Shown here in pieces: positions 15,201 to 34,250 of a stretch of 64,000 nucleotides of DNA. Within the stretch, counting starts at the first letter, position 1. Each line of letters starts with the position of its first letter. Under the pieces are notes generated by a model. It saw only the letters and a list, made by a program, of their open reading frames with translations, made no database searches and had not been told where the DNA came from. Source of the stretch: Desulfofustis sp. PB-SRB1 (GTDB taxonomy: Bacteria > Desulfobacterota > Desulfobulbia > Desulfobulbales > Desulfocapsaceae); the NCBI GenBank assembly GCA_016722945.1, contig JAEQMT010000038.1, forward strand, positions 434,001 to 498,000, given 5' to 3'. The translations under genes were made by a program, and so were the position numbers.

Positions 15201-18200
15201 GTTGCTGGGCTGAGTGCCAGGTAAAATCCATGGCCCGCTTAGTGGCATGAGCATCACTGTACTTATCAAGCAGCAGCAGGACCTGTTCCCGGCTTGCTCC
15301 CGCAGCGAGTATCAGGCACACTTGGAGGCGCCCACCCGATTCAATGGTGATACTCTGACGCAGACTGAGAATCGGGTCAAGCACAAAGCCCTGACTGTTG
15401 CCAAGTGCTTGCATGGCTCCCATTGGCCGGTCAAGAGTTCGGCCGCGGCCGATGAAACGTCCCCTATCGGTTTCAAACTGCCAGCCTTTTACCTCGCGGG
15501 TTGCCGTTGCACTTTCTTGCAGCGTCAGGCAGTGGGCGACATAGAGGGGCTGATCATTTTCGCTTCTGGCGCGCCGATAAGCAAGCAATGCCTCCTGCTG
15601 CGGAAGTGCTTCGGTCTGGATGAAGAGTTTATTGAAGGCCGGGTGCTGGCGATCAGCGTTATGCGGGGTCAGCGACAGCTCGACATAGCTGGTAAGGTTA
15701 AGGCGACGTGCATGGGTGGAATGATTTACCAGGGTTATCCGCCGAAGTTCCACATCATCCTCCGGGGAAACGATGACCTCGGTTTCACAGGAAATGGAAT
15801 TATCCGTGCGCTTAAACAGAGCTCGATCGAGGTCAAACTCGACGGAATAGGCATCAGGATTCCCGCCGACCGGATGATAGGTGGTCGACCAGAGCCGGTC
15901 CGGTTCGACCTCATGGATATAGCAGAAGATGCCCTGCCTATCACAGGTTGGATCGGAACGCCAGCGGCTCAGTTCCCGGTCACCCCACTGACTGTAGCCG
16001 GCACCGCTGTTAGTGATCATCAGACCGTACCTGCCGTTGCTGAGTAACAGGCTCCTGGGCCTTCGCGTATGGGGTGTGGTGAAGACGCTGCCTGCTGGAG
16101 AGACAAGGTCGTGGTCAATGAGTTCAGCTTCTTTGGGCCGTGTCGAGATGAGATGCAGCGGCGGCAGGACCGGGATGCGCTCCTGCAGCAGAGCCTCAAA
16201 GGCCCGGACCCGCGAGTCACTATGAAAACGGCGCGGGAACGGATTGTCGTGGAGAAAATTGGTAAGAGCCAGGAAGGCCATGCCCTGGTGATGAGCCATG
16301 TAGGCTTCGATAACTACCCCGCGTTTGCGAGCTTTTCCAACAACATCACGCTGCGGTCGACGGCTGAAATCCAGCGCTTCGAAATAGCCGTAATCGCCAA
16401 GCAAATCAAAGTCGATCAGTCTTTTCAGATTTTGCAGTACCGCCTTGGGCGCCAGGTTGAGTGCCAGCAGCGTGGCATAGGGGGCAATGACCGGTTGTTC
16501 ATCCATCCCCCTTTTCAACCCCAGTGCCGGTACGCCAAAGGCCTTGTATTGATAAGTCTTGTCCTGGTCGAGATCGGCAAAGGCCGACTCGGAAATTCCC
16601 CACGGCACTTCATGGGTTTGGCCATAGTCAATCTGCACCGCCACCGCTTCTCTCGCCGCCTTGTCGAGAAGCGAATGGGGATAGGAGTGCTGGAACAGCA
16701 GAGGCATCAGATATTCGAACATGGTCCCGGTCCAACTGAGCAACACCCGCTTTCTGCCGATTGCCCCATATGGGCGGTTCAAGGAGAACCAATGCTCCAG
16801 CGGCACATCGTTTCTGGCAATAGCTATGAAACTTCCCAGACGCGATTCGCTGGCCAGCAGGTCGTAATTTGAATCATCCAGGCGGTTGGTCGAGACGTTA
16901 TAGCCGATGGCAAACAGTTTGCGTTTGTGGTTGTAAAGAAAACGCATATCCACCGCCGCGGCCAATCCATGGATATCAGCGATCAATCGCTCTGCAACCG
17001 CCAAGGTTTCTCCGGCAAACCATTGCGCCATGGCAAAGGCGGCAAGAAGACGGTCGAGCCAGGCGCTCAGTGTTGGGGAAGTAGCAGGAGACTTTTGCTG
17101 AATCACTTGGAGGCGCAGAATCGACTCAATTCTACCTTCGGCGAGTATGCTGAGTGATGGCACACGGGCCAGGTCTTTGCGAATGGCCCGCACCACAGGC
17201 TCACCAAATGGTGCAAGCTCTTCTTCAGATTTTTCAGCAAGGATTCGGGCCCAAGTGAGATAGCGCTCAGCCATCTCTGCCAAGGCTGCTGCCTGTTTGT
17301 TCAGTTCCTTTGCCCAGGTCGTGTTAGTTGCGTCAGCAACGACCGAGGTGAGGTCGATCATCGTCCGCTCCTGCAGATGAAGCATTTCGGTGACGGCGGA
17401 CGGAGCAGCAAGCCAGTCGGCCAGGAGGGCATCAAGGGTCTGATGGCAAAAGCTGGCTATATTTTTCTGGGTTGCAACCTGTTTTAGTATTTCTCCGGTA
17501 TCGGCAAGCCCGGCAAAAGTTTTTCCGTCAAGCAGAGGGGCCCGGACCAGCTCTTTAACCCCCTGTTCCAGGGTCCAGAGGGCACCAAGCAGATTGCCGC
17601 TGTCAACAGTGGACACGTAGCGAGGCTCTAGGGGGGCCAAGGTATGGATGTCGTACCAGTTATAAAGATGCCCTTGATAGCGATTAAGACGCCCCAGGGT
17701 TGTAATGGTTTTTGTCAATCGGTCAAAGACCTGGTCAGTCGTCAGGTAGCCTGCATCGTGGGCCCCCAGAGCGCTGGTCAACCAGAGACCAATATTGGTT
17801 GGGCTGGTTCGCATGGCCAGGCGGTCCTGATGGGCTACCTGGTAATTGTCAGGGGGGAGCCACGACGTATCTTCGTTAACGAATGTGGCAAAATAGTGCC
17901 ACGTCCTACGGGCAACTTGCCGGAGCAGGCGATAATCCGCTTCTGGAAGCGGGCTGCTGCTCTTTTGTGTGACAGGACGCAGGTTTAAAAGCCAGCCGAT
18001 CAGTGGAGAAAAGAGCCAGAGAGTAAGCCAGGGAATGGCCAGAAGAAGTATTTCTGGTTTAACGAAATAAAGTGTTACCCCAAGAGCAATACTCAAAAGA
18101 CTTACGGAAGTCAGGCCGGCGACAAAAAATGACTGGCGCCGGGAACTGCTCCAATGGGTCGCCTGCGCCGTCCACTCAAGCAATAGCCGTTTTGAAATCA

Positions 18201-21200
18201 TCCGCCGGTAACACACGCGGGCGATGGCATCGAGCGCTACGGCCGCCTGGTGCGGCAGCATGGCGGCATCAGCCAAGGCCCGGAGCACATCGTGGATTAT
18301 CTTTTTGAATTCGAAATGCTTCAGACCGTTATGGGTGGTGGCCATGGTGAAGGGTTGGGCAAGCGGATGAAAGATCAGCTGAATGCCGACCAGCACTAGT
18401 GCACAGGCGCCCATCCGCTCGGAAATAAACCATGAGGCTATCAGCAGTGCCACGCTGGCAGCCGGAAGCAGGCTGCGACGTAGATTATCGACAATTTTCC
18501 AGCGATTGAGCGGTGACAAAGGATTTGGCCCCCGACCACCATCCGCCAGAGGAACGCGAGAAAAAATCCAATCGGCAATCTGCCAGTCTCCGCGAATCCA
18601 GCGGTGGGCTCGATTGGTATAACTTTGGTAGCCGTGGGGAAAGTCGTCGAAAAGCTCGATATCGCTGGCCAGTCCTACGCCCGCATATGCACCTTCGATC
18701 AGATCATGGCTCAGCACCAATTCTTCAGGGAACCGCCCCGACAGGATGCGGCTGAAGGACTTTACATCATAAATGCCTTTTCCCTGATACGATCCCTCGC
18801 CACTGAGATCCTGATAGACATTGGAGATAGCTGCGGTGTAGGGATCGATTCCAATTGCATCGGCAAAAAGGCGGCTAAATACCGAGGAACTGGTGCTCGC
18901 CAGGGTCGGGCTTATACGCGGTTGGATAATGGTATATGAACCGGCAATAATTCGACCTGCCTCGTCGAAGCGCGGCTGATTGAGAGGGTGAGCCAGGGTT
19001 TCGACCATCCTTCGGGCCGTCGTGTGCGGCAATTGGGTGTCACTGTCGAGGGTGATGATGAAACGAACATTGGTCAGATGGTCCGGATTTCCAACATAAA
19101 CCAGGGGCGGTGCAGCCTCGACCCGGGTGCCGTCGATCAGGCGGTTCAGTTCCTCAAGTTTACCTCGTTTGCGCTCCCAGCCGATGAATTTTTGCTCGGA
19201 TTCGCTCCACATGCGCTCGCGATGAAGAAGAAAAAAGCGCTCACCGCCGTGACGCTGGTTGAGGGCGTCAAGACTATGCTGGGCTGTGTGTAGCAGAGAG
19301 CTGTCATCCTCAGAGGAAAGGGTAGTTGCATCGGTGTAGTCCGAAAACAAACTAAATAGCAAATTTGTTTCTTTGTTTGCTAAATATCGGATCTCTAATT
19401 TCTCAACCTCGTCAATTATCGTCTCCCTGTTGACCAGCATCATCGGGACGACCACCAGAGTGCGAAAATCGTCGGGGATTCCCGAAGCAGCGAAATCCAT
19501 TTTTGCCAAGGGCCTGGGTGGTAAAATGCGCATGATCAGATAATTGACTACTTCAATCGCCAGCTGACTGACTGGAATCAGCAGGAGCAACAGCAATCCA
19601 AGATATGTTGCTGAAGACCATCCGACCAAACCTATACTTGGGGGAGGAACGAAGAAAGTGAACAAAAGCATGAACGAAATGAAAAATAAACCAATCCCGA
19701 GAAAGTACGCACAAGTATGCCGGGCTGAAATCCATACCAGAATACGTTGACGGAATGCTTCGCGAAAGGTAAGCAATTGCGCCAGTTCCAACCGCCCCTC
19801 CCCGACAAGCCAGGTGCCGACATGGCGGCGGCGTTCATCTCTTCTATTTTCTCTTCCTGCCTGCTTCGCCAAATCAATGACCTGCTCAGCAATTTCATCC
19901 TCACTCTTGCCGGCCGCAAGAGCGATTTCTTCAATTGCCCCACGACAGGAATCCCGGGTCGCAAAATCCACGCCGGGATAAATACCAGACGGATCAAGAC
20001 GTAAAATCTGTTCCACCCGGCTGATTTGTTCGAAAATTTCACGCCAGTCAAACAAGGAAAGATTACGCAGGCTATTGAAAGCATTCCCGCAAGCCAGCTG
20101 TTCACTGGTTTGGCGATTGAGTTCGCGAAGATTGAGATCATGGTGAGGGGTGTTGAGGGAGCGTTCGAGCCAGTTCTGGACCGGCGACAAGACGGCGGCT
20201 TCATCATAAAGAAGGCCAAGCAACTGCACACCGAAATAAGGGCTTGGATTCGGTACCGATATGGAAAGGTCGGAGAGAAGGGCAAAAAGCTGGTTGGCAT
20301 CGCAGCGATTGGCAGCAATCAGCCGGTTCGCCCAGAAGTCAGCCAGCTGGCGATCGCAGAGATCGTCCAAGGCTGTAACAGCCAGACTTTGAATACTTTC
20401 AAGAAGAGCGATTCGTAACATCTGAGGTATTGCCCAGAGTTCACCGATGGTCAGATTCTGCTCCGATTGGTAGGCATCGAGATAGGCGATGATATTCTCC
20501 CGGTCCAGATGCAATTCCATATGGGCAACAAGATTTTTGGCAACAACGTAGACACGTGGCAGACCTTGATAAGGAGCAGAGGCCAGGCTCGGCAGTTGCT
20601 GATAAAATCGACGGGGTAGATTGAGCAGCACATCACGAGCATTTCCCTCCAGAATGTATTCGTTATCAATTATCCAGTCGGCGGCAGGGGTCGCTTTCTG
20701 TTCCAGGCGGCTTGCAGCAACGAGATCGGCGCAGACCAGGCGCAGCCTTTTGCGTGCCTGCTTGAGACGCTTTAGCAAATTAGTGGAAGAGGATGGTCGT
20801 TGCTCCACTTGCTGCTCGCTGGCCTGCTGCCTGGCGCGTTGGTGGACCTGGATGGGGGAAAGTTTTTCCTCTGTCCCTCGAGCTTCCAGGTGCTCCTCAC
20901 GATTTGTATGCAGGACAAAAAGCGCTGGAGGGGTATCGCAGTTTTCCCGCAAAATCTTCATCGGCAGGGGCAGCATGTCAAGCTGGGCGCCAAGGATCAG
21001 GACGGATTCTCCAGGTACAAGCCAGCGACTATGGTTATTTATTGCACTGAGCTTTACGCCATACCGTTCGCGTCGAAATATTGCGATAACGATGGCTACA
21101 CCGAGCGTCCCACAGGCCAATATAGCGGCTAGCGGATAGGCGATTGCCCCGCCAGGGAGCAACTGCAGCCAGAGCAGACAATGAGCTGTAATTCCCCCAA

Positions 21201-21396
21201 TTCCTCCAGCCAGAATGGCTGCAGTAATTGCCCAAAAAGAGCGACGCCAGGTAAACTGATCAACTGTCTGAGCAACTCCATCCGGGCCTTTCTGTATCAG
21301 AACCGCTGACCTGAGTCCTTGTCGTGCCAGATACTTCAGGGCTTTTCGTGCTTCATCCTTGCTGGAAAAATAACCGATAATAGTAGTTAGGCTCAA
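12211..21396 (-). CDS. ndvB: Cyclic beta-1,2-glucan synthase (NdvB/Cgs type)
   Basis: A 3061-residue inner-membrane enzyme that polymerises glucose from UDP-glucose into cyclic beta-1,2-glucans, periplasmic osmoprotectants. Visible in order: an N-terminal membrane region (residues 50-120); a GT84 glycosyltransferase with IITLDSDTQLP (about 785), LSHDLIEGAYAG and HRWIRGDWQ (about 935); further membrane helices (960-1140); a glycoamylase-like domain (about 1165-1700) with HEVPWGISESAFADL; and two GH94-phosphorylase-like halves, the last with GTGDWNDGMNLVG (about 2740). The length suits the family (about 2800-3000). The start at 21396 is TTG; only a weak GGACGGA precedes it, so the start is tentative. 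No break was found in 9.2 kb. Confidence 0.92.
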   Translation of the reverse strand: MSLTTIIGYFSSKDEARKALKYLARQGLRSAVLIQKGPDGVAQTVDQFTWRRSFWAITAAILAGGIGGITAHCLLWLQLLPGGAIAYPLAAILACGTLGVAIVIAIFRRERYGVKLSAINNHSRWLVPGESVLILGAQLDMLPLPMKILRENCDTPPALFVLHTNREEHLEARGTEEKLSPIQVHQRARQQASEQQVEQRPSSSTNLLKRLKQARKRLRLVCADLVAASRLEQKATPAADWIIDNEYILEGNARDVLLNLPRRFYQQLPSLASAPYQGLPRVYVVAKNLVAHMELHLDRENIIAYLDAYQSEQNLTIGELWAIPQMLRIALLESIQSLAVTALDDLCDRQLADFWANRLIAANRCDANQLFALLSDLSISVPNPSPYFGVQLLGLLYDEAAVLSPVQNWLERSLNTPHHDLNLRELNRQTSEQLACGNAFNSLRNLSLFDWREIFEQISRVEQILRLDPSGIYPGVDFATRDSCRGAIEEIALAAGKSEDEIAEQVIDLAKQAGRENRRDERRRHVGTWLVGEGRLELAQLLTFREAFRQRILVWISARHTCAYFLGIGLFFISFMLLFTFFVPPPSIGLVGWSSATYLGLLLLLLIPVSQLAIEVVNYLIMRILPPRPLAKMDFAASGIPDDFRTLVVVPMMLVNRETIIDEVEKLEIRYLANKETNLLFSLFSDYTDATTLSSEDDSSLLHTAQHSLDALNQRHGGERFFLLHRERMWSESEQKFIGWERKRGKLEELNRLIDGTRVEAAPPLVYVGNPDHLTNVRFIITLDSDTQLPHTTARRMVETLAHPLNQPRFDEAGRIIAGSYTIIQPRISPTLASTSSSVFSRLFADAIGIDPYTAAISNVYQDLSGEGSYQGKGIYDVKSFSRILSGRFPEELVLSHDLIEGAYAGVGLASDIELFDDFPHGYQSYTNRAHRWIRGDWQIADWIFSRVPLADGGRGPNPLSPLNRWKIVDNLRRSLLPAASVALLIASWFISERMGACALVLVGIQLIFHPLAQPFTMATTHNGLKHFEFKKIIHDVLRALADAAMLPHQAAVALDAIARVCYRRMISKRLLLEWTAQATHWSSSRRQSFFVAGLTSVSLLSIALGVTLYFVKPEILLLAIPWLTLWLFSPLIGWLLNLRPVTQKSSSPLPEADYRLLRQVARRTWHYFATFVNEDTSWLPPDNYQVAHQDRLAMRTSPTNIGLWLTSALGAHDAGYLTTDQVFDRLTKTITTLGRLNRYQGHLYNWYDIHTLAPLEPRYVSTVDSGNLLGALWTLEQGVKELVRAPLLDGKTFAGLADTGEILKQVATQKNIASFCHQTLDALLADWLAAPSAVTEMLHLQERTMIDLTSVVADATNTTWAKELNKQAAALAEMAERYLTWARILAEKSEEELAPFGEPVVRAIRKDLARVPSLSILAEGRIESILRLQVIQQKSPATSPTLSAWLDRLLAAFAMAQWFAGETLAVAERLIADIHGLAAAVDMRFLYNHKRKLFAIGYNVSTNRLDDSNYDLLASESRLGSFIAIARNDVPLEHWFSLNRPYGAIGRKRVLLSWTGTMFEYLMPLLFQHSYPHSLLDKAAREAVAVQIDYGQTHEVPWGISESAFADLDQDKTYQYKAFGVPALGLKRGMDEQPVIAPYATLLALNLAPKAVLQNLKRLIDFDLLGDYGYFEALDFSRRPQRDVVGKARKRGVVIEAYMAHHQGMAFLALTNFLHDNPFPRRFHSDSRVRAFEALLQERIPVLPPLHLISTRPKEAELIDHDLVSPAGSVFTTPHTRRPRSLLLSNGRYGLMITNSGAGYSQWGDRELSRWRSDPTCDRQGIFCYIHEVEPDRLWSTTYHPVGGNPDAYSVEFDLDRALFKRTDNSISCETEVIVSPEDDVELRRITLVNHSTHARRLNLTSYVELSLTPHNADRQHPAFNKLFIQTEALPQQEALLAYRRARSENDQPLYVAHCLTLQESATATREVKGWQFETDRGRFIGRGRTLDRPMGAMQALGNSQGFVLDPILSLRQSITIESGGRLQVCLILAAGASREQVLLLLDKYSDAHATKRAMDFTWHSAQQQLQMLRIQPDEARRFQQLASHLLFPNMLLRASAKNLVENRKGQSGLWPYGISGDLPIILISIVEERDLNLVRQMLKAHTYLRMHGLSIDLVILNEEAESYERPLQERLEQLIHHHSISATVEKQGAIFLKNIAQVPEEDQKLLKAIAAVVLVAARGNLPQQLRVPVEVSEPLERLIPKHSRPEPSAPLPFMELNYFNSLGGFTLDGREYVIYLGPGINTPAPWVNVIAGPTFGTMVSETGSGFTWYGNSQRNRVTGWSNDPVLDPATEAIYIRDEESGVYWSPTASPIREQTAYRARHGAGYTVFEHNSSGIEQELTVFVPVDENGGAPIKLQRLQLTNASSKNRRLSITYYSELTLGENRETSQMHVKTRWDEKTQAILAENHYHPDYNGRVTFAAITPDADSYSGDRTAFIGRNRSLASPAAMELLQLSERTGAGLDPCAALRVSFDMAPGERRDIICMLGQAETVDEARALVQRYREKRAFEDAFDETRGWWDELLGTVEVHTPELAVDLLLNRWLQYQSLSCRIWGRSAFYQSGGAFGFRDQLQDVMAFLYTRPQIAHGQILRAASRQFLEGDVQHWWHEPAGAGIRSRISDDLLWLPYVAAQYVRTTGDSNILKVEIPFLSGALLAEDQHEQLFIPEITVERATLFEHCRRAVSCGLTAGPHGLPLMGTGDWNDGMNLVGAKGKGESVWLGWFLCDVLQGMVEMATLVGEPELSQHYLSEKIGLIERIEGAGWDGEWYLRGTFDDGTPLGSATSTEARIDSLPQSWAWLSGAAESVRAEKAIESAWHHLVREDEGLALLFTPPFEKSEPSPGYIKGYPPGVRENGGQYTHAALWMAMALARKGDGERAVKLLRLLNPIEHARDAAEVWHYGVEPYVVAGDVYRLPGRIGQGGWSWYTGAAAWMYRAWTEEVLGLKVRGDQLWIDPVIPAAWPGYSLRYRHGQTIYEIQVENPHHCERGVDWVEMDGRRLGGKVIQLERELVKHRVVVRMGM

Positions 21397-21760: not shown

Positions 21761-22546
21761 ATGTTTACCGGTCGATTGATTTTCAAGCAGGTTATGGACT
21801 TCATACCGCTGTCAACCTTTCATCGTTGCGTTACAAAGTACCAGGGCAACTCCAACGTAAAAACATTTACGTGTCTCGATCAGTTTCTCTGCATGGCGTT
21901 TGCCCAGATCACCCACCGGGAAAGTCTGCGAGATATCGAGATTTGCCTTCGCTCCCAAAACAAGAAACTCTACCACATGGGTATACGCGGACGAGTCTCC
22001 AGATCAACGCTCGCCGATGCCAACGAAAAGCGCGATTGGCGCATCTATGCCGAGCTTGCTCAACACCTCATCGTTATTGCCAGAGACCTCTACCGGGAAG
22101 ATCAGTTTCTCGAAGAGTTAGACGAAACGGTATATGCTCTGGATTCAACCACCATCGATCTGTGCTTGTCAGTGTTTCCCTGGGCGGTTTTCCGCAAGAA
22201 AAAAGGTGCTGTCAAACTGCACACGTTGTTGGATCTACGGGGAAACATACCCACATTTATCCATATTTCCGACGGCAAACTGCACGATGTCAACGCGCTC
22301 GATTTGTTACCGTTGGAAACAGGCGCATATTATGTCATGGATCGAGGTTACCTGGATTTCCAACGACTCTACACCTTCAACCGAGTGCCTGCTTTTTTCG
22401 TGACTCGCGCCAAAGCAAATACGCAATACAAAAGGCGATATTCACATACGGTCGACAAAACAACAGGCCTCCGTTGCGATCAAACAATCACACTGAGTGG
22501 TTATTATACCAGCAAGTATTATCCACTGAAGTTTCCTAGAAATTGA
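21761..22546 (+). pseudogene. IS4-type transposase, 3' truncated
   Basis: 261 residues starting MFTGRLIFKQVMDFIPLSTF, with the DUF4372-like N-terminal domain (CLDQFLCMAFAQITHRESLR) and the start of the DDE catalytic domain (VYALDSTTIDLCLSVFPWA; YYVMDRGYLDFQRL). Relatives are about 370-390 residues. The frame ends just after SGYYTSKYYPLK, where the glutamate-bearing C-terminus should follow, so the last third is missing. The break coincides with the end of the next, oppositely oriented IS remnant, indicating that one element inserted into the other. Not expected to be active. Confidence 0.85.
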
Positions 22547-22558
22547 CCGTTCATCATC

Positions 22559-23651
22559 CTACGCCACCATGCGCAGCAGTGTTTTGACGAAAGATTTTTG
22601 TGGTGTTTTCGCTGGCGCCGGGCAAACCGTATGAAAATCCGGTCTCAATGCTGCTTCCGTAATTATCCTGCGCACATCCGAAAACGCAAATCCGGCTCGC
22701 CCTCTAATTTTATGCCTGCGATCCGGGACGTTTTTTAACCGGTCGGCATAGATCCATGTCAAGGTTGTGGCCATCATACAGAAGTTGAGATGATTACTTA
22801 CTGAATCAGCATTCCGCACTTGAGATTGTGAGCTGCCGATCTCCTGCTTGATCTCCTTGAATCCCGCTTCAATCTTCCATCGTGCCCCGTAATACTCAAT
22901 AATCTGCTCAACAGAAAGCGTCATGTCGGTGGTCATCAAAGCAACATATCGAGTTTTTCGATACACCCACACAACTCGGATCGGGCACTTCATCGTTTTG
23001 ACCATAACGGCCTGTGAATATGCCTGCACATGCCTTGTTTTGCCGTATAGGAAAACCGTATAGGTCTGGGCCTTGTCCTTCCACCTAACTGCACAGTCAC
23101 CCACTGAACCCAAGCAGGCACCATATTTTCGTGGACGACCAGCCGGACGCTTTGCGGTAGACAAAGGTGGAAAGCCATACAACATACTATTGGTACGCAT
23201 GCGAGAAAGCAGATCGACACACCCCTCACCACCACGATCTATCCTTGACCAGAGCCCATTGTTTCCAAACCAGCTATCAGTCACAACCAGTATCGATTGC
23301 TGAAAGTACTCTCGAATACCTGCTATCATCGTGGCAGCCTGTGACATCTTGTTTTCAAAGGGAAGAACCTTCCCTTGTCGTTTGGCTGTAACAGATTGTG
23401 CCTTAATGTCCTTTTGCATCATATAGAATCGGAAATCCAGGGGCAAGCAGGCCCATCGTGACTTCACTTGTTTTAACAACCCTATTGCCACAATGCACTG
23501 TGACCACGGATACGAACTCCGGTTTGTCTTTGCTGCATGATCGTGAAAATGGCCACAGCCAAATATTTTCCTGCCACTTTTGGGATTGATGGAATCATCC
23601 AGCGCCACAATCATTCGTCCTTGTGTGGCAGGTGATGGAATCATTGCTGGT
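22559..23651 (-). pseudogene. IS4-family (DDE) transposase, N-terminally truncated by IS21
   Basis: The surviving part reads MIVALDDSINPKSGRKIFGC (first catalytic Asp region), VVTDSWFGNNGLW (second Asp) and YGARWKIEAGFKEIK, which fits the IS4 signature Y-(2)-R-(3)-E-(6)-K exactly. The C-terminus (KTLLRMVA) is intact. The N-terminal 70-100 residues are missing: homology stops at about 23651, exactly where the IS21 end begins, and the frame only continues by chance into that end. The missing 5' part is not present on the far side of the IS21 element, so more than simple insertion happened. Confidence 0.85.
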
Positions 23652-23778
23652 TGTGCTAACCTAAAATTGACCATCAAAACAGGGTAGTGATTACCGAAAA
23701 CTGACCACCCTGAGCAATCAATTTTCTGCTAGAATGGCATTTTTAGTCATTCAAGCAGGAGGTGAGGAGTTGCTCAAA

Positions 23779-25272
23779 ATGGATCAATACGAATACATCA
23801 GGACGGCCCAAAGGGTCTACGGCAAGAACATCAGTGAGCTGGCAAGACAGACAGGCCATTCTCGAAACACCATCAGAAAGGCCCTTCGCGGTGAATCGTG
23901 GGGATACCGTGCGCGTGAACAGCAATCGTTTCCTGTCCTGGGGCCATATCGTTCACTGATCGAAGCATGGTTGAGAGCGGACAAAGAAGTGCCGAAGAAA
24001 CAGCGCCATACTGCCCGACGTGTCTACAACCGTCTCCGCACAGAGCATGGATATCAGGGCAGTGAATCGAATGTTCGCCGCTATGTGCGGCTGGTACGAA
24101 TGGAATTGGGCAGTGACCCTGGCCGGGAGGTTTTCATAGCATGTGAAGCTGATGCGGGAGAGGAAGCGGAGATCGACTGGGGCACTGCAACGGCAGTTGT
24201 GGGCGGAGAGAAAGTCCGGTTGAAGTTTTTTTGCATGCGAAGCAAATATTCCGGCAAACACTTTGTCCGTTGTTATCCCTGTGAACGGCAGCAGGCTTTC
24301 TTTGACGCCCATATCAAGGCCTTCGATTTTTTTGGGGGGATTTTTCCGGTTCTGATCTACGACAACCTGACTACCGCGGTACGCAAAGTTCTCCAGGGTA
24401 AAAAGCGTATTGAACAGGAGAGTTTCAGTCGATTCAAAGGGTATTACAGTTTTACCGCACGATTTTGCAACCGGGATAGCGGCAATGAGAAAGGAGGAGT
24501 TGAAGGCTTGGTGGGATTTGCTCGCCGGAATTATATGGTTCCCGTGCCGGTGGCGGAAAGCTTTGAAGAGCTCAATGAAAAGATTCTGGCAGACTGTCTG
24601 GCGTATGGTTCACACAAGATGGCTGGTCACTCAGAGAGCGTAAATGAGCGCTTTGAGGCAGAGAAGCAACATCTTCTTGCTCACCCGGAAACAGCGTTTA
24701 GCACTACCCTTCCCGGTGATGCCCGGGTCGACAAATACGCCACGGTGATGATTGACAAGAACCGTTACTCAGTGCCCTGGCAGTACGCGGGGCGGCGGTT
24801 GAAAACACTGGTGTATGTGGACCAGGTGGAGATTTTTGCGGACGGCGCCAAACTGGCTGTCCATGAACGATTGTTCGCCAACAACAAGTGGAGTCTTAAT
24901 CCCGCCCATTATCTGGAACTGATCCAACAACGCCCGATGTCGTTTTCCAGTGCTCGAGTAATTCGGCAATGGCGGGAACAGTGGCCCCAATCGCTGCATC
25001 AATTGCTTGCAAATTTCTGCCGTATCCAGGGAGAAACCAAAGGGATCAAGGATTTTATTTCAGTATTGATGCTGTACAGCCACTATGGAGTCGACGAGGT
25101 TGAGACTGCGGTGAAGCGTGCCCTGGAGAGCAATCTTAACGGTAGTGAAGGGGTACGGCATGTGTTGATATCTTCACGAGAGAAGGACACCATGAGTGCC
25201 CCACTGCCAGACTGGCCGAGTCTGCCATCTCCTGATGTAAGCGTCTATGGAGTATTGGGAGGTGTGCAATGA
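23779..25272 (+). CDS. istA: IS21-family transposase IstA
   Basis: A 497-residue DDE transposase. It has an N-terminal helix-turn-helix (NISELARQTGHSRNTIRKAL), an integrase core with AEIDWGTATAV (first Asp), VLIYDNLTTAV (second Asp) and GNEKGGVEGLVGFARRNYMV (the Glu), then a C-terminal domain. The start at ATG 23779 is preferred because GAGGTGAGGAG precedes it; an ATG 15 codons upstream lacks a ribosome site. Its TGA overlaps the istB ATG by 4 bases, the normal coupling in IS21 elements. Catalytic residues look intact, so the element may be mobile. Confidence 0.93.
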   Translation: MDQYEYIRTAQRVYGKNISELARQTGHSRNTIRKALRGESWGYRAREQQSFPVLGPYRSLIEAWLRADKEVPKKQRHTARRVYNRLRTEHGYQGSESNVRRYVRLVRMELGSDPGREVFIACEADAGEEAEIDWGTATAVVGGEKVRLKFFCMRSKYSGKHFVRCYPCERQQAFFDAHIKAFDFFGGIFPVLIYDNLTTAVRKVLQGKKRIEQESFSRFKGYYSFTARFCNRDSGNEKGGVEGLVGFARRNYMVPVPVAESFEELNEKILADCLAYGSHKMAGHSESVNERFEAEKQHLLAHPETAFSTTLPGDARVDKYATVMIDKNRYSVPWQYAGRRLKTLVYVDQVEIFADGAKLAVHERLFANNKWSLNPAHYLELIQQRPMSFSSARVIRQWREQWPQSLHQLLANFCRIQGETKGIKDFISVLMLYSHYGVDEVETAVKRALESNLNGSEGVRHVLISSREKDTMSAPLPDWPSLPSPDVSVYGVLGGVQ

Positions 25273-26036
25273 GCAGCGCACTCATGGTCGAATTGCGTGA
25301 AAATCTGAAGGCGCTGAATCTTGCAGCCACGGCCCGGGGTCTGGAAACCAGCATTCGTCAGGCAAAAGAGAGCGGTCCAGGCTACGATGAGTTTTTACTG
25401 GATCTGACGATAACCGAGCTTGCAACCAAAGCGGAACAGAGACTCACCCGCCGAGTGCGCGAGGCGAAGTTTCCTTTGCTCAAGACCCTGGAAGGGTTTG
25501 ATTTTGCCGCGGCACCCGAGCTCGACATCAGGGTTATACGAGAGTTGGCGGGATGCGACTATATTACAGAGCGTGGCAATGTTATGTTTCTTGGCCGTAG
25601 TGGTACCGGCAAGACTCATCTTGCAACGGCACTGGGCATTGAGGCCTGCAGGAACAATTACCGGACCAGGTTCGTCAGTTGTTATGGGTTGGTAAACGAA
25701 CTTATAGAAGCCCGGCAGGAAAGAGAGCTTCGCCGTCTTATTGGACGTTACGCTCGCTACGATCTGTTGATTCTCGATGAGCTGGGCTATATCCCGTTTT
25801 CCAAGGAAGGCGGGGAATTGCTCTTTCAGGTTCTTGCCGAACGTCAGGAAAAAGGGTCGGTCATCATTACCACGAACCTTGGATTTGCCGACTGGACACA
25901 GGTGTTTGGTGATCCGGTGATGACCGCGGCCCTTCTTGATCGCCTGACGCATCGAGCCCATATCATCACCTGTCAGTGGGATAGCTTTCGTCTAAAACAA
26001 AGTCTCAGGGGGAGACCATCAAAGACAGAGCAATGA
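25269..26036 (+). CDS. istB: IS21-family helper ATPase IstB
   Basis: A 255-residue AAA+ ATPase that assists IstA in target choice and strand transfer. Walker A is GRSGTGKTHLATAL (about residue 115), Walker B LLILDELGYIPFS, then SVIITTNLGFADWTQVFGDP and DRLTHRAHII, all characteristic of IstB. It is full length and translationally coupled to istA. The IstA C-terminus, intact Walker motifs and complete ends together suggest a functional element. Confidence 0.94.
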   Translation: MSSALMVELRENLKALNLAATARGLETSIRQAKESGPGYDEFLLDLTITELATKAEQRLTRRVREAKFPLLKTLEGFDFAAAPELDIRVIRELAGCDYITERGNVMFLGRSGTGKTHLATALGIEACRNNYRTRFVSCYGLVNELIEARQERELRRLIGRYARYDLLILDELGYIPFSKEGGELLFQVLAERQEKGSVIITTNLGFADWTQVFGDPVMTAALLDRLTHRAHIITCQWDSFRLKQSLRGRPSKTEQ

Positions 26037-28510: not shown

Positions 28511-29107
28511 TTAATTAGAGGTCTTGGTTAGCATAGTAAAATGATCAAAAATCGCCTCTTCACTGATACTTTTGTCATGAAACTTCTTCTCATTTACGGT
28601 GAGCTGCAGCACCAGATTATCAAGTGAGGCCATTTTCTCGACATGCCTGAGCATTTTGGCCAGGGACTGATTATTTCTTTGCAACGCTTCATTTCTGCCG
28701 GTTAATACAGCGGACTGCTGCTTCATGGAAACTCGAAGAGTATAATCCTCCACCGCTGTCCGTATTACCCGCCTCAGTTCCGCCTCCTCCCAGGGTTTGT
28801 AGATAAGATTGCTAACCCGCCCCATGTTGATGGCCATAAGGGCGATATCAAGTTCCTGGTAGGCCGTCATCATGATGCGCTCGGTTTCCGGCCATCTGGA
28901 CTTGACCTCCGCCAAAAAGTCAGCCCCGTTCATACCCGGCATTCGCTGATCCGACACCACCACGGCAACATCGGTTTCACTCATTATCTCCAGTGCGTGA
29001 AACGGGTCCTGGCAGGTAATGCACCTATATGGCTCGTCGGCGAAGGTCCATTCCAACGCCTCGAGCACACTGGGCTCGTCATCTATGAACAGAATCGTGT
29101 TTTGCAT
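28511..29107 (-). CDS. Response regulator, receiver plus helical C-terminus
   Basis: 198 residues. The receiver domain (1-125) has ILFIDDEPSVLEALEW (acidic pocket), VVSDQRMPGMNGADFL (phospho-Asp D in VVSDQ), MMTAYQ and YKPW (the conserved Lys). The sequence style VVSDQRMPGMNGxxFL...PETxRIMMTAY is that of RpfG-like receivers, but no HD-GYP or other output domain follows; instead there is a helical, probably coiled-coil tail (residues 130-170). It may work by protein contact. Twenty-five bases downstream of another single-domain regulator gene on the same strand, so the two likely form a unit. No kinase gene is adjacent. Confidence 0.85.
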   Translation of the reverse strand: MQNTILFIDDEPSVLEALEWTFADEPYRCITCQDPFHALEIMSETDVAVVVSDQRMPGMNGADFLAEVKSRWPETERIMMTAYQELDIALMAINMGRVSNLIYKPWEEAELRRVIRTAVEDYTLRVSMKQQSAVLTGRNEALQRNNQSLAKMLRHVEKMASLDNLVLQLTVNEKKFHDKSISEEAIFDHFTMLTKTSN

Positions 29108-29132: not shown

Positions 29133-29492
29133 TCAATGCATAATCTCGGTCGTAATGCCCTCTACTTCGTCCACGTCCAGGGGCTTGCGCAGGTATCTGC
29201 ATACCCCGTAATGAAACGCCTGCTCTTCCAGTTCATCCTGCGGCATGGCGGTGACCACAACAATCTTGGTTGCAAGATGTTTCCTAGCCATTCTTTCCAA
29301 AAGCTCCATGCCGTTCATACGTGGCATCTTGAGATCTAAAAACATCAGACTGGGGTGGTGGCGCTCGAGCAAGGCAAGCGCGTCAACGCCGTTGGTAATC
29401 ATCTGCAGGGGATAGTCCTCACCCAGCATGGCATCAAACGAATCGAGAATACCCTGGTCGTCATCGACAATAAATATCGGCTCTGTATGCAT
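29133..29492 (-). CDS. Single-domain response regulator
   Basis: 119 residues comprising one receiver domain: FIVDDDQGILDSFDAML, LMFLDLKMPRMNGMELLERM (phospho-Asp in FLDLK), IVVVTAMP and YLRKPLDVDE (conserved Lys). There is no output domain, so it acts as a CheY/Spo0F-like relay or contact protein. The ATG at 29492 is chosen for the AGGAG just upstream; an in-frame start 47 codons earlier gives an unconserved extension. It precedes the second response regulator on the same strand. The input kinase is not in the window, unless it was the broken kinase at 32 kb. Confidence 0.87.
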   Translation of the reverse strand: MHTEPIFIVDDDQGILDSFDAMLGEDYPLQMITNGVDALALLERHHPSLMFLDLKMPRMNGMELLERMARKHLATKIVVVTAMPQDELEEQAFHYGVCRYLRKPLDVDEVEGITTEIMH

Positions 29493-30006
29493 AGTTACTC
29501 CTTTTTTGGTGAACCAATCAGACACTTCCAATGTGACGCAGAATCCGTGCCACAATAACCGCAGTCTCTTTTCACCAGCACTTCTTCTGTCGGCGCCAAC
29601 TCTGGATTGTATTGAAGGCAAAAATGATGCCAAAAGCCGTTAAGCAGAAAGACCTATTTCACCGCCATGGGAAGAGAGGTTGCGAATTTTTCAGTAATGT
29701 TCCGGCCTAAGCTCCCCTATCAGGTTGTGGTAACTACCCACGGGTGATGCCGAAATACGTGGCGACTCTATACCATACCAGCTGATTTCAGGGAATTGCC
29801 ATGGAATCCGTGCACAATTTTTTGTGCACCGTCAGGCTTTATGTGCAATAGGATTTTTTCATTTCTGTTCATATAGTTGCGTGTAACATGCTTCATGTTT
29901 TGAAAAATCGCTATGCAGTTCAGCGGATATTCTTCCTTGCCGATCATTTTCACTTTATTGCAGTAATCCTCAGCGTCTAAGCCTTATTTTCGCAATCATT
30001 GATAAT
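29493..30006. other. Intergenic control region before the micropeptide gene
   Basis: About 510 bases between the divergent regulator gene and the sigma-54 promoter at 30007. It holds the inverted repeat at 29885-29899. A 61-codon minus frame (29768-29953) has no family resemblance or convincing ribosome site, and I do not call it. Confidence 0.35.
29885..29899. promoter_or_regulatory. Inverted repeat, candidate activator site for the micropeptide promoter
   Basis: AACATG-CTT-CATGTT, perfect 6-bp arms, 107-122 bp upstream of the sigma-54 promoter at 30007. The position suits a sigma-54 activator site, but the sequence differs from the TGGTC-N6-GNCCA boxes, so a different activator is implied. 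Confidence 0.4.
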
Positions 30007-30022
30007 TGGCACTCACCTTGCA
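30007..30022 (+). promoter_or_regulatory. Strong sigma-54 promoter of the micropeptide gene
   Basis: TGGCACTCACCTTGCA is a full match to TGGCAC-N5-TTGCW. Transcription would begin near 30033, about 85 bases before the ATG at 30118, and end at the terminator at 30273-30305, giving an RNA of about 270 bases. Confidence 0.72.
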
Positions 30023-30117
30023 TCTTCCAGTCGCGTTATCTGAGCATCGTATGCATCGCAGTACGAACCAGAAGAGAGGATGTGTCATTTAATAACAAAA
30101 TCTATGTGGAGGAAAAC

Positions 30118-30210
30118 ATGAAAAAGGTAATGGTTCAACTCTTTGTCGCAAGCATGGTTATTGCCGGTTCTGTTCTGCCCGTATTAGCTGCTGCCGGAGG
30201 TGGCTGGTAA
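30118..30210 (+). CDS. 30-residue secreted micropeptide (signal peptide plus AAGGGW)
   Basis: A complete tiny gene: GGAGG ribosome site 6 bases before ATG 30118, stop TAA at 30208-30210. The product starts MKKVMVQLFVASMVIAGSVL and ends PVLAAAGGGW. Lys-Lys, a hydrophobic core and an A-x-A-like end (VLA) make a textbook Sec signal peptide. Cleavage after VLA would leave about six residues, AAGGGW. An own sigma-54 promoter and an own terminator show a dedicated transcript. I do not recognise the family. Possible roles: secreted peptide signal, small membrane peptide, or precursor of a modified peptide. The oligopeptide-binding lipoprotein and sensor kinase genes lie downstream. Confidence 0.68.
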   Translation: MKKVMVQLFVASMVIAGSVLPVLAAAGGGW

Positions 30211-30272
30211 GCCGATCTCAATTTTATTGATCTGAGTTACATACTTCGATCTCCACAATGGGGTCGAAGATC

Positions 30273-30305
30273 AAAACACGAACCTGCTGGTTCGTGTTTT
30301 TTTTT
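30273..30305 (+). terminator. Intrinsic terminator after the micropeptide gene
   Basis: AAAACACGAACC-TGCT-GGTTCGTGTTTT: a perfect 12-bp stem with a 4-base loop running into nine T's. It closes the short micropeptide transcript and separates it from the binding-protein gene. Confidence 0.92.
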
Positions 30306-30449: not shown

Positions 30450-32108
30450 ATGATTCACCGCCGCTCGTCCCTGAAACTTTTGGCTTGGGCCGGTTTATTC
30501 TTAACACTGCTTCTTTGCTCGTGTGAACAACCAGAACGACCAGCGGAACAAGCCGCCACGGGCACAACAGCAAAAGAACAGCGCAGGGCTGGCGGCATCT
30601 ATCGCACTCCTCTGCTGAACAACCCCGCCACCCTTGACCCCGCTTATGTGCTGGATGAATATAGCGCCGCCGTGGTTCAGCAGCTTTTTGACGGTCTCGT
30701 CCGCTTCGACCCGTATCTGCTGGTGCTGCCGGCCCTGGCTGAAAGCTGGCGGATTGAAGACAACGGCAGGAGGTATCGGTTCGTCCTTCAGGAGGGCGCC
30801 CGTTTTCACAACGGTGCTCCGGTCACCGCCGAGGACGTGGTATTCTCGCTGAGTCGTTTGCTGCGCATTGACCCCTCACCGCCAGCACTGCCCCATCTGC
30901 TGAAAATAACCGGCGCTCGTGCGTATCGGGAACAGACAAGTGAAACGGTAGCCGGGTTACGCGCATTGGATAAAGGGGTAGTGCTTGTGGAATTGGATGA
31001 ACCGCATGCGCCCTTTCTCACCGCTCTGGGCATGTATCAGGCAAAAATCGTCCCGGAAACGGAAGTGATCAGTCTGGGGGATGATTTTGGCCGCAATCCG
31101 GTGGGCAGCGGCCCGTTTCGTTTTGTCTCCTGGGAGGCCAACACACGGATCACGCTTGCCCGCAATCCCGAATATTTTGGCGCATCTTCCTACCTTGACG
31201 AGGTTGAGTATGCTATTTTCCCGGGAGTTGGTGTTGACCAACTATTAGCTGATTTCGAGGGTGGTGGTCTTGACGAGATGCCGGTTTTAGGAGGGGTTAG
31301 ACAGGAACTGAGCGGGGTCGAGGGCTTGCAGTGGTTTCATCGCCCCGCCTTATGGCTGATGTTTTATGGGATTCGGGGGGATCACCCGCCCCTTGATGAT
31401 CCGGGGTTTCGCCGGCGACTATCCGCGACCCTGGATCGAGAAAGAATTATCGACCAGGTCTATAGTGGGCAGTTTGATCCGGCCACCAGAATCCTACCCC
31501 CCGGTATGCCGGGCGTCAGCCAGAAAAACTTCCATGAATACGAAGAGACTAGACATCTGCAAAACGACACCGACGATTCTCCAACAATGGCGGCCCCAAA
31601 ACGAATTTCACTTGAGATCGTTTCCACCTCCAACTCTTCCTTCGCTCAGACCGAGCTGAGCCTTGTCCGCGAGGCATGGGCGGAAATCGGAGTTGATCTG
31701 AGTATTAAATATATCACCGACTGGTCCGAATTTGAGGCCTATATCAATTCTGACTCCGTTCAGCTTTATCGCTTATCCTGGTCCGCCGAAATGCCCGACC
31801 CTGATGGCTTTTTGGATCCACTCTTCGGCTCAGAAGGCCTAGTCAATTTCATGCGCTTTGAGGATCAGAGGATCGATGATCTGCTTCAATCCGCACGTGG
31901 AGAAACCGATCCAGGCAAGCGCGCGGCGATGTATGGTGAGATCGAAGCGGCAATAATGGCCGAAACCCCCATCATCCCCCTGATATTCAACAGTGTAGAT
32001 CGAGTCTACAAGCCTTACGTGCGGGACGCACAACCCAGTGCCCTGGGGGCACACTATATGTCCCTGCATCAGGTCTGGTTCGACCTGGACGCCCAAAAAT
32101 CCAGGTAA
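30450..32108 (+). CDS. Oligopeptide-type ABC substrate-binding lipoprotein (SBP family 5)
   Basis: 552 residues. The lipoprotein signal MIHRRSSLKLLAWAGLFLTL ends in LLCSC, placing the mature protein on the membrane. The SBP_bac_5 fold is clear: YRTPLLNNPATLDPAYV, LFDGLVRFDP, PALAESWRIEDNGRRYRFVL, ARFHNGAPVTAEDVVFSLSR, GSGPFRFVSWEANTRITLARN and LDRERIIDQVYSGQ. Family members bind oligopeptides or similar for import or sensing. No permease or ATPase gene is adjacent; instead a sensor kinase gene follows 24 bases later, so it probably served as a ligand-sensing partner of the kinase. The start at ATG 30450 is set by GGAG upstream and the signal peptide. Confidence 0.88.
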   Translation: MIHRRSSLKLLAWAGLFLTLLLCSCEQPERPAEQAATGTTAKEQRRAGGIYRTPLLNNPATLDPAYVLDEYSAAVVQQLFDGLVRFDPYLLVLPALAESWRIEDNGRRYRFVLQEGARFHNGAPVTAEDVVFSLSRLLRIDPSPPALPHLLKITGARAYREQTSETVAGLRALDKGVVLVELDEPHAPFLTALGMYQAKIVPETEVISLGDDFGRNPVGSGPFRFVSWEANTRITLARNPEYFGASSYLDEVEYAIFPGVGVDQLLADFEGGGLDEMPVLGGVRQELSGVEGLQWFHRPALWLMFYGIRGDHPPLDDPGFRRRLSATLDRERIIDQVYSGQFDPATRILPPGMPGVSQKNFHEYEETRHLQNDTDDSPTMAAPKRISLEIVSTSNSSFAQTELSLVREAWAEIGVDLSIKYITDWSEFEAYINSDSVQLYRLSWSAEMPDPDGFLDPLFGSEGLVNFMRFEDQRIDDLLQSARGETDPGKRAAMYGEIEAAIMAETPIIPLIFNSVDRVYKPYVRDAQPSALGAHYMSLHQVWFDLDAQKSR

Positions 32109-32132: not shown

Positions 32133-33545
32133 ATGAACAGATGGGCAGCCAGGCCAAACATATTGAAAAGCCCTCGATTCATTCCGCTTCGCTACCGACT
32201 GGTGCTGGCAAACGGCGCCATGCTCATTGTCTTGCTGGGAGTGCTGGCGCTTACCCTGGTATGGTTTCAGAGCCGCACGAGCAGAGAACAGCTTGAACAG
32301 CGTGGTGAGGCAATCGGTCGGAGTATTGCGGCAACCTCCATCAAGGCCCTGCTCGGTTATGACTACATTTCCCTGGAGCAGTTTGCCAATCAGGCCGCGC
32401 AAGACCCAAATATTCTCTATGTCGTTGTTCATGACAAAGAAGACTACGTAGCGGGCTTCAGTAACCGGCCTGACCTGCAGGGTCAAAAGCTGTCTGATGA
32501 GATAAGCCGGAAGGCAACCGCAAGCACCGGGCCACTGGTGCAAAAGGCGACAACAGGCCCTGACGGGCCACCCGGCCTGGAGGTGGTTATACCCGTTTTG
32601 CTGCCCGATTCCACCGAGCGATGGGGAACCGTCCGGGTCTGCCTCTCTCTTGCCCCGCTGTATCTGCAATTACGCCAGACTATCTGGATTGTGATTGTTA
32701 TCGGGGGTGCGGCACTATGTTTCGGTACCATGTTTTCCATTTTAGGGGCAAAGCGGATTACCCGCCCGCTGGGTGATCTGGTACGGGCATCAGAGGATGT
32801 GGCGAGGGGCAATTACCAGCAGGACATCAGGGTGAAGACCGGCGATGAGGTGGAGGTACTTGCCGAGAGCTTTTCTACGATGACCCGGGAAATCCTCGCC
32901 CACCAGAGGCGCCGGCAACAGCAATTGGAAGAGATACAACGTCTGCGGGACTACACCGACAAATTAATGACCACCATGGCCGATGGGTTGCTTTCTGTAG
33001 ATGTGAGCGGAACGGTAGCAGCGATTAACCCGGCGGCCTGCCGGCTGCTTACTCTTCCCTCGCCTGCCACGGTTACCGGACAAACCATTGCGACCGTGTG
33101 TGCGGATTCACCAGAACTTCTTGGTCTGATTGACACAATCATTACAGGCTCTGAGCCGGTCGACCAGCAGGAACTCGACCTTGAGCGTGGTGCGAGTGGC
33201 CAGACCCTGCTGATCAGCTCAAGCATCTTATAAAACAGTGAAAAAAAGCCCCAGGAGATCATCTTAAACCTTCATGACATTACCGAATTAAAGCGGCTGG
33301 AGGCGCGAATTCGGCAATCGGAAAGACTGGCGGCACTGGGCACTCTGGCGGCGGGCATGGCCCATGAAATACGCAATCCCCTTTCGGCAATCAAAACCTT
33401 CGTGCAGCTTTTGCCTCGAAAGATCGATACCCCCGGCTTTCTTGAAAAATTCAACCGGACGGTGCCACGAGAAACCCAGCGCATCAATCTTCTGGTGGAA
33501 GAGTTACTGGAATTGTCCAGGGCACCGAAATACAAATTCAAATTT
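32133..33545 (+). pseudogene. Sensor histidine kinase, broken by an in-frame stop and a 3' deletion
   Basis: Membrane kinase of the NtrB/ZraS style. TM1 (about residues 25-48), periplasmic sensor (SIKALLGYDYISLEQFANQA, typical of such sensors), TM2 (about 185-208), HAMP (AKRITRPLGDLVRASEDVA), PAS (about 275-365), then a TAA stop at 33231-33233. The same frame goes on at once with LHDITELKRLEARIRQSERL and the phospho-acceptor MAHEIRNPLSAIKTFVQLLP. After [11 protein letters not shown] homology ends: the frame runs into the antisense strand of the adjacent regulator gene, so the ATPase domain is gone. It cannot be a working kinase. Confidence 0.88.
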
Positions 33546-34250
33546 TCCCGGGGCACGGATATGAGCGCCGGTGAACGCGCCTTTTTCATGGCCGAACAGC
33601 TCGCTTTCGATGAGCTCGGAGGGGATCGAGGCACAGTTTATCGCCACAAAGGGTTTATGATGCCGATCGCTGGCCGCATGAATGGCACGGGCGATCAGTT
33701 CCTTGCCGGTACCGCTCTCTCCGGTTATCAAAACACTGCTGGGGGTACCGGCCAGCTTATCGATAAGCTGAGAGATATCACGCATCTGGCGTGACTGGCT
33801 GATGATCTGGCCCTGTTGCGACTGGTGGGCCACCTCCGAGCGCAGGAACGATACCTCTTTTTCCAGATGCCGCTTCTGGATGGCACGCTCCACCCGGGTC
33901 AAAATTGTTTCCGGATCGAACGGTTTGGTTATATAGTCATAGGCGCCATGCTGAATTGCGGTTGTTGCCTCCAGGGCCCGGTCAATTGCCGACACGATGA
34001 TGATATCGAGGTCTTTGTCGCGCCTCCTGATCTGCTCGAGGGCCTCCATTCCGCCCATTTCAGGCATTGATAGATCAAGCAGGACAAGATCGAACTCCTC
34101 TTTTTCAACGGCGCTGACAGCGTGGTTGCCATTGACGGCAAAGGCCACCTCATACTCATCTTCAAGGATTGCCTCCAGGGATTCCCTGGCGCCGGCCTCA
34201 TCGTCTACCACCAGCAGCTTGGCTTTTCTCGGTGTTTCGGTCAATTTCAT
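33504..34250 (-). pseudogene. NtrC-family sigma-54 response regulator, C-terminally truncated
   Basis: The receiver domain (residues 8-125) has [34 protein letters not shown] (phospho-Asp) and YITKPFDP. The AAA+ domain starts with [20 protein letters not shown], Walker [16 protein letters not shown] (about 175) and GAFTGA (about 227). It then ends at PGKFEF, running 10 residues into antisense kinase DNA. Walker B, the rest of the ATPase and the DNA-binding helix-turn-helix are missing, so it cannot activate transcription. It faces the kinase gene tail to tail; a single deletion between them explains both truncations. It may once have controlled the sigma-54 promoter at 30007. Confidence 0.9.

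Follow-up and report, generated by a model that had tools for sequence, protein, structure and literature searches.

We found that a 30-codon gene in the window analyzed here, a 64,000-nucleotide stretch of the Desulfofustis sp. PB-SRB1 genome, belongs to a real and previously unnamed gene family. The unit likely encodes the pre-peptide of a linear, autoinducing peptide signal that would be sensed by a peptide-binding protein of the SBP_bac_5 type (here SBP), a histidine kinase and a sigma-54 response regulator. The genes, their conservation, their linkage and their cis-elements are established, and the OppA/DppA fold of the SBP rests on a structure model.

The peptide gene forms a compact unit on the forward strand. 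Its sigma-54 promoter, TGGCAC-N5-TTGCA (positions 30007 to 30022), is a perfect site and the sole strict sigma-54 match on either strand of the 64 kb, where about 0.06 would be expected. A GGAGG ribosome binding site, read from the sequence (30108 to 30112) and matched by AGGAG/GGAGG-type sites in nearly all relatives, is followed by the frame MKKVMVQLFVASMVIAGSVLPVLAAAGGGW (30118 to 30210), which runs for 30 codons plus TAA from the ATG at 30118 to the stop at 30208 to 30210. Sequence and folding identified an intrinsic terminator with a 12-bp perfect stem and a T-run (30273 to 30300); folding of this region gave z = -5.2, with no shuffled sequence equally stable, and similar hairpins also lie 3′ of the peptide gene in relatives. 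The original prediction had proposed this promoter, ribosome site, frame and perfect terminator, and all four were confirmed. Its claim that such a gene escapes annotation also held, the frame being unannotated and too short for annotation, but it had overlooked a palindrome upstream of the promoter (29811 to 29828).

The frame encodes MKKVMVQLFVASMVIAGSVLPVLA|AAGGGW (the bar marks the predicted cleavage). Residues 24 to 26 are AAA, and the cleavage point is therefore ambiguous in the window copy. Aligned relatives place it after residue 24, directly behind LPVLA, which would yield the predicted mature peptide AAGGGW (30190 to 30207); this assignment is inferred from sequence alone.

A single-sequence search of relatives returned only one clear homolog, in genome G012; the others were recovered with a two-row profile and then with the SBP as bait. 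Profile matches to the peptide in relatives had E values of 1e-13 to 1e-20. Family members have 29 to 36 codons, a signal sequence ending in PVLA and a Gly-rich tail of 5 to 8 residues, for example CGGGGP, SGGAGP or EGGGW; in Desulfogranum marinum, a relative whose system is intact, the tail reads RGGAGF. The peptide had no match in Pfam, and in NCBIfam only sub-threshold matches of its signal part. Two to four tandem peptide copies are present at four loci (L138, L059, L062 and L063). Some of these copies encode an identical protein and differ at synonymous sites.

Synonymous change greatly exceeded replacement change, indicating selection on the protein and hence translation of the gene. In nearest pairs, pS/pN was 0.64/0.03 (L044/L045) and 0.56/0.07 (L007/L043), with 0.57/0.07 and 0.70/0.09 in two further pairs, and tandem copies in L059 gave 0.33/0.00. 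Within the tail, Gly codons vary at the third base while Gly is kept. All 24 members compared have G29, and conservation reaches 90% or more at P21, A24, G26 and G27. The tail can open with C, S, R, G, N, E, A, T, V or Q, a freedom that speaks against an obligatory lipid anchor, and it ends in a clade-specific residue (P, W, Y, F, N, D or A). Together, the profile matches, the sigma-54-type site present at every one of 23 loci and the strong purifying selection acting on the protein place the peptide unit far beyond chance. The original prediction would have been refuted had the C-terminal residues been unconserved and only hydrophobicity kept; this was tested and was not the case, since the Gly-rich tail is conserved. 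A GGGW ending, for which it had suggested searching relatives, is not general, because the terminal residue differs by clade. A Mantel test comparing distances between tails with distances between SBPs gave r = 0.61 (0 of 2000 permutations); we discarded it as evidence for tail-SBP co-evolution because shared descent alone would yield such a value.

The gene downstream of the terminator (30450 to 32108, forward strand) encodes an SBP_bac_5 peptide-binding protein (PF00496, E 3e-68, 231 bits against a gathering cut-off of 32.4), a predicted lipoprotein and the candidate receptor. Among 93 genomes of the taxonomic family, a close SBP homolog occurred in four, and exactly these four have a peptide gene adjacent to it. 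An SBP profile led to 24 named loci in Desulfogranum, Desulfobacula, Desulforhabdus, Syntrophobacteraceae and other Desulfobacterota, and the small gene lay just upstream of the SBP gene at 24 of 24 loci with upstream DNA (22 plus the window and G012). Partner SBPs of peptide genes form one clade of SBP_bac_5. Across 395 genomes of the phylum, the peptide was found in 14, the SBP in 14 and both in 12 (Fisher p 3e-19). The two genomes with an SBP only (G154 and G287) carry the most distant SBPs, without peptide, kinase or regulator, and served as natural negative controls; by eye, their SBP genes are preceded by an apparent HD-GYP-type gene. Peptide matches in two other genomes (G229 and G246) were partial, weak and within long frames, and we took them as chance.

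The phylum search added a further family, f22, with the pentapeptides EGGGW, EGGGY, ESGGW, TGGGW and EGSGY, which resemble the GGGW ending of the window's peptide. Peptide and SBP lie side by side in at least 32 genomes in total, all of sulfate-reducer type; in the window's class the system is rare (5 of 258 genomes). No SBP relatives were found in viral contigs. At one locus (L060:8167-15180), four tandem SBP genes stand behind one divergent peptide gene (tail SASGSSYP) and before a single kinase gene, an arrangement that may reflect receptor diversification.

The structure model of the SBP (mean pLDDT 76.5) has an OppA/DppA fold (Z 28-34), with matches to MppA (Z 33.9) and DppA (Z 32.4) over 464 to 487 residues. 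Its structural neighbors include Bacillus subtilis OppA with the PhrE pentapeptide (8are) and AapF with a signaling molecule (7kz9). An Asp/Glu of the SBPs (residue 447 in the window) aligns with the Asp of the DppA-type motif WSGDNGDPDNF; in DppA and OppA this Asp binds the free amino end of the peptide. No permease or ATPase linked to the SBP was seen among the conserved neighbors of 26 loci, which comprise only a hybrid kinase, the SBP, the kinase and the regulator; a distant permease is not excluded.

Wherever the contig reaches, the SBP gene is followed by a gene for a histidine kinase with sCache_3, HAMP and PAS domains, which is intact in relatives (606 to 657 aa). Contigs long enough to show it also carry a sigma-54 response regulator gene, positioned beyond either the kinase or the peptide gene; only at L138 did the stretch examined hold no regulator. 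The regulator of the intact relative has receiver, Sigma54_activat and HTH_8 domains.

The cis-elements of the loci are conserved in position. The palindrome that precedes the peptide promoter, TGCACAATTTTTTGTGCA (29811 to 29828), has the form TGCACA-N6-TGTGCA (18 bp) and is a candidate site for the sigma-54 response regulator; that the regulator binds it is inferred from its position, with nothing but the DNA sequence to go on. The perfect form occurs once in the 4.69-Mb genome of the window, and in 10 of 20 genomes searched, this one included, the copy at the peptide locus is the only one. A perfect palindrome stands about 200 or about 300 bp before the peptide ATG at 21 of 23 loci, and a sigma-54-type site 81 to 117 bp before it at all 23; the perfect palindrome is absent from the other two, and the f22 family shows a different upstream pattern. 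The loci thus have both elements of an NtrC/sigma-54 regulon, a -24/-12 promoter and an upstream activator site, in the absence of binding data. In the window, the palindrome lies midway between the peptide promoter and a divergent sigma-54-like site, TGGCATCATTTTTGC (29618 to 29632, reverse strand), a pattern match that faces the divergent response-regulator genes, including the one at 29133 to 29495. Divergent sites are also present at L004, L043, L045 and Desulfobacula-type loci. At six f22-family loci, a separate TTGACA-N17-TATAxx promoter lies between the peptide terminator and the SBP-kinase operon, so that production of the sensor would not depend on the signal.

Additional palindrome copies with sigma-54-type sites precede genes for giant FG-GAP and RHS/teneurin-like secreted proteins in two genomes (G116 and G117; loci L089, L090, L093 and L094), and these genes are possible members of a regulon of the peptide system. 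A radical-SAM gene behind a palindrome and a sigma-54-type site in G128, a member of the Desulfobacteraceae (L095:3982-4888, reverse strand; the frame stops early), could be a further target.

We propose the following mechanism, in which cleavage, export or release, binding, phosphotransfer and feedback are all inferred. Signal peptidase would cut after PVLA and free a Gly-rich peptide of 5 to 8 residues in the periplasm, from where it would leak to the outside. The peptide would bind the SBP lipoprotein, and the loaded SBP would alter the activity of the kinase, which would phosphorylate the sigma-54 regulator. The regulator would then bind TGCACA-N6-TGTGCA and fire the peptide promoter, and in some species also genes for large secreted proteins. 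The secreted signal would thus come under positive feedback, and the combination of a short exported peptide, an extracytoplasmic peptide-binding lipoprotein, a kinase, a sigma-54 activator and an activator site ahead of the promoter of the peptide gene itself is the design of an autoinducer. The nearly one-to-one occurrence of SBP and peptide and the fixed kinase and sigma-54 regulator make a signaling role probable, in the absence of transcript, peptide, binding or response data. Gene adjacency of an SBP and a kinase does not prove their coupling, and our confidence is limited accordingly: in Pseudomonas aeruginosa, no evidence was found that three kinase-adjacent SBPs activate AgtS/AruS (PMC11113362). 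The proposal that a dedicated sigma-54 gene yields an exported hexapeptide, possibly a signal, is supported, with export remaining an inference; between a signal and a membrane micropeptide, both offered by the original prediction, the family, the Gly-rich tail and the fixed partners strongly favor the signal.

The alternative that survives best is periplasmic self-monitoring, in which the peptide would never pass between cells and would instead inform the SBP and kinase about the state of Sec export, signal-peptide cleavage or envelope proteolysis in the cell that made it. Genes and chemistry would be identical to those of an autoinducer, and the SBP, a predicted periplasmic lipoprotein, would meet the peptide before it leaves the cell. 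However, a reporter needs no dedicated inducible promoter, no tandem copies and no clade-specific tails. The sequence does not exclude this alternative, which we consider unlikely.

A regulatory leader or arrest peptide that controls the downstream SBP gene, either a glycine attenuator or a SecM-like peptide with a Gly-Pro end, is suggested by the short frame before an operon, the Gly run, the GGAGP/GGGGP endings and the intervening terminator. Several observations speak strongly against it. A 30-residue chain cannot exit the ribosome tunnel while arrested, and all members, at 29 to 36 residues, are too short to expose their signal sequence during arrest as a SecM-like peptide would. Moreover, the tail can end in P, W, Y, F, N, D or A, as many as four copies can stand in tandem, conservation extends to the signal-peptidase motif, and the f22 SBP gene has its own sigma-70-like promoter past the terminator.

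We also regard a hydrophobic membrane micropeptide, such as a type I toxin, as very improbable. The MKK start and hydrophobic core of the peptide, its length of 30 residues, and the tandem copies and strong terminators of the family are all features also seen at type I toxin loci. Against this stand the conserved PVLA cleavage motif and Gly-rich tail, the sigma-54/activator control and the fixed SBP, kinase and regulator partners, and we did not notice a conserved antisense RNA gene. Finally, the SBP might sense dietary peptides while the product of the small gene is secreted for some other purpose, such as serving as a metal or redox ligand, since OppA/DppA-type SBPs mostly bind nutrients and many tails start with Cys; this is hardly tenable, as relatives replace the Cys by S, R, G, N, E, A, T, Q or V, peptide and SBP occur nearly one to one, and no permease accompanies the SBP.

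The autoinducer reading can be compared with four known systems. Like Phr, PapR and NprX of Bacillus (RRNPP), the family has a short pre-peptide with a Sec signal; by analogy, its 5 to 7 C-terminal residues would constitute the signal and an OppA-family SBP would handle the peptide. The features of a Sec-type pre-peptide with a short C-terminal mature part (MKK, hydrophobic core, PVLA and a tail of 5 to 8 residues) are met at the sequence level only. The Bacillus peptides, however, are imported by Opp and bind a cytosolic regulator, whereas the system described here has a kinase and a sigma-54 regulator and no linked permease or RRNPP gene, and the two are unrelated in phylum and sequence. The Phr family model TIGR04429 scored 12.1 bits (cut-off 25) over the N-terminus only, and no TPR-type RRNPP receptor was present among the conserved neighbors of the 26 loci, a search confined to the locus.

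At the receiver end, the proposed feed from a periplasmic binding protein and a membrane histidine kinase into a sigma-54 response regulator has its counterpart in LuxPQ-LuxU-LuxO of Vibrio, and such a regulator at the end of the relay is present in the intact relative. There, however, the ligand is AI-2, LuxP is of the sugar type and the relay is phosphatase-driven; here the binding protein is of the peptide type (SBP_bac_5 and not the LuxP-type sugar family) and the ligand would be a ribosomal peptide. The LuxO model gave the regulator 357.5 of 800 bits, and the regulator is thus not LuxO itself.

Enterococcal pheromones (PMC7117660 treats the pheromone/PrgZ system) are likewise peptides of at most 8 residues from signal-bearing precursors. 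They are bound by the SBP_bac_5 lipoprotein PrgZ/TraC. In contrast to the dedicated mini-gene and two-component system described here, they stem from the signal peptides of ordinary lipoproteins and, once imported, target PrgX/TraA; in our family the conserved tail lies after the cleavage motif, and the conserved neighbors include no PrgX/TraA-like regulator. AgrD/AgrC shares a dedicated peptide gene beside a kinase and a regulator, as well as the autoinduction that is inferred here, but its peptide is cyclized by AgrB and sensed directly by the kinase, whereas here a peptide-binding protein would stand between peptide and kinase; no AgrB-type protease was found among the conserved neighbors of the 26 loci. 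The system probably works like Phr/PapR where the peptide is concerned and like LuxPQ-LuxO on the sensing side, and belongs to neither.

Short linear peptide pheromones are a specialty of Gram-positive bacteria. A 2026 review presents peptide signals as a Gram-positive paradigm and uses neither “Desulf...” nor “Deltaproteobacteria” (PMC13220807), and we found no description of this peptide system in the literature searched, which was limited to open-licence papers and leaves its absence unproven. We think it likely that the peptide is a signal of a kind not previously described in these Gram-negative bacteria, with signaling itself being inferred. A bolder reading, which we hold to be as apt to fail as to succeed, is a new class of cell-to-cell signaling in Gram-negative Desulfobacterota: an unmodified ribosomal 5- to 8-mer, autoinduced and with clade-specific tails, would be detected in the extracytoplasmic space by an orphan OppA-type lipoprotein, which in turn would drive a histidine kinase and a sigma-54 regulator; in some species the signal would also control giant FG-GAP or RHS/teneurin-like secreted proteins. 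If true, sulfate reducers and syntrophs have a peptide signal of their own, whose ligand, receptor, kinase, regulator and target promoter can all be named from sequence; signals of such size hide in frames too short for annotation.

In the window's own genome the relay is broken, which the original prediction could not see. The kinase gene (32133 to 33539, forward strand), recognized by domain matches to sCache_3, HAMP, PAS and the start of HisKA, has an in-frame TAA at 33231 to 33233 and a deleted C-terminus, and ends at 33539 by running into the regulator gene. The latter (33534 to 34250, reverse strand) encodes a receiver and part of an AAA+ domain with 76% identity to the intact G012 protein over residues 5 to 240; it is cut at residue 239 of 465 and lacks the DNA-binding domain. 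The matches of these convergent genes have six bases in common, which points to a simple deletion. In the divergent operon on the reverse strand, a single-domain response regulator (29133 to 29495; Pfam Response_reg, synteny with G012) is accompanied by a soluble receiver/histidine-kinase hybrid whose kinase part has been lost (28511 to 29107; 171 of 407 residues match).

The kinase and regulator lesions may represent pseudogenes or an assembly fault; an assembly error could explain the kinase-regulator junction but is unlikely to account for all three lesions. No intact paralogue of the broken kinase or regulator exceeded 51% identity in this genome. With kinase and regulator broken, the signaling loop is probably dead here, although peptide and SBP are intact; production or sensing of the peptide may persist in this strain independently of the relay. 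The terminal Trp of the window's peptide, in place of Pro or Phe in its nearest relatives, could reflect loss of the relay. A few kilobases upstream of the system lies a cluster of transposase-like genes that includes an apparent IS21 istA/istB pair (21761 to 26036), and beyond it a 3061-residue frame on the reverse strand (12211 to 21396) that by eye resembles a cyclic beta-glucan synthase.
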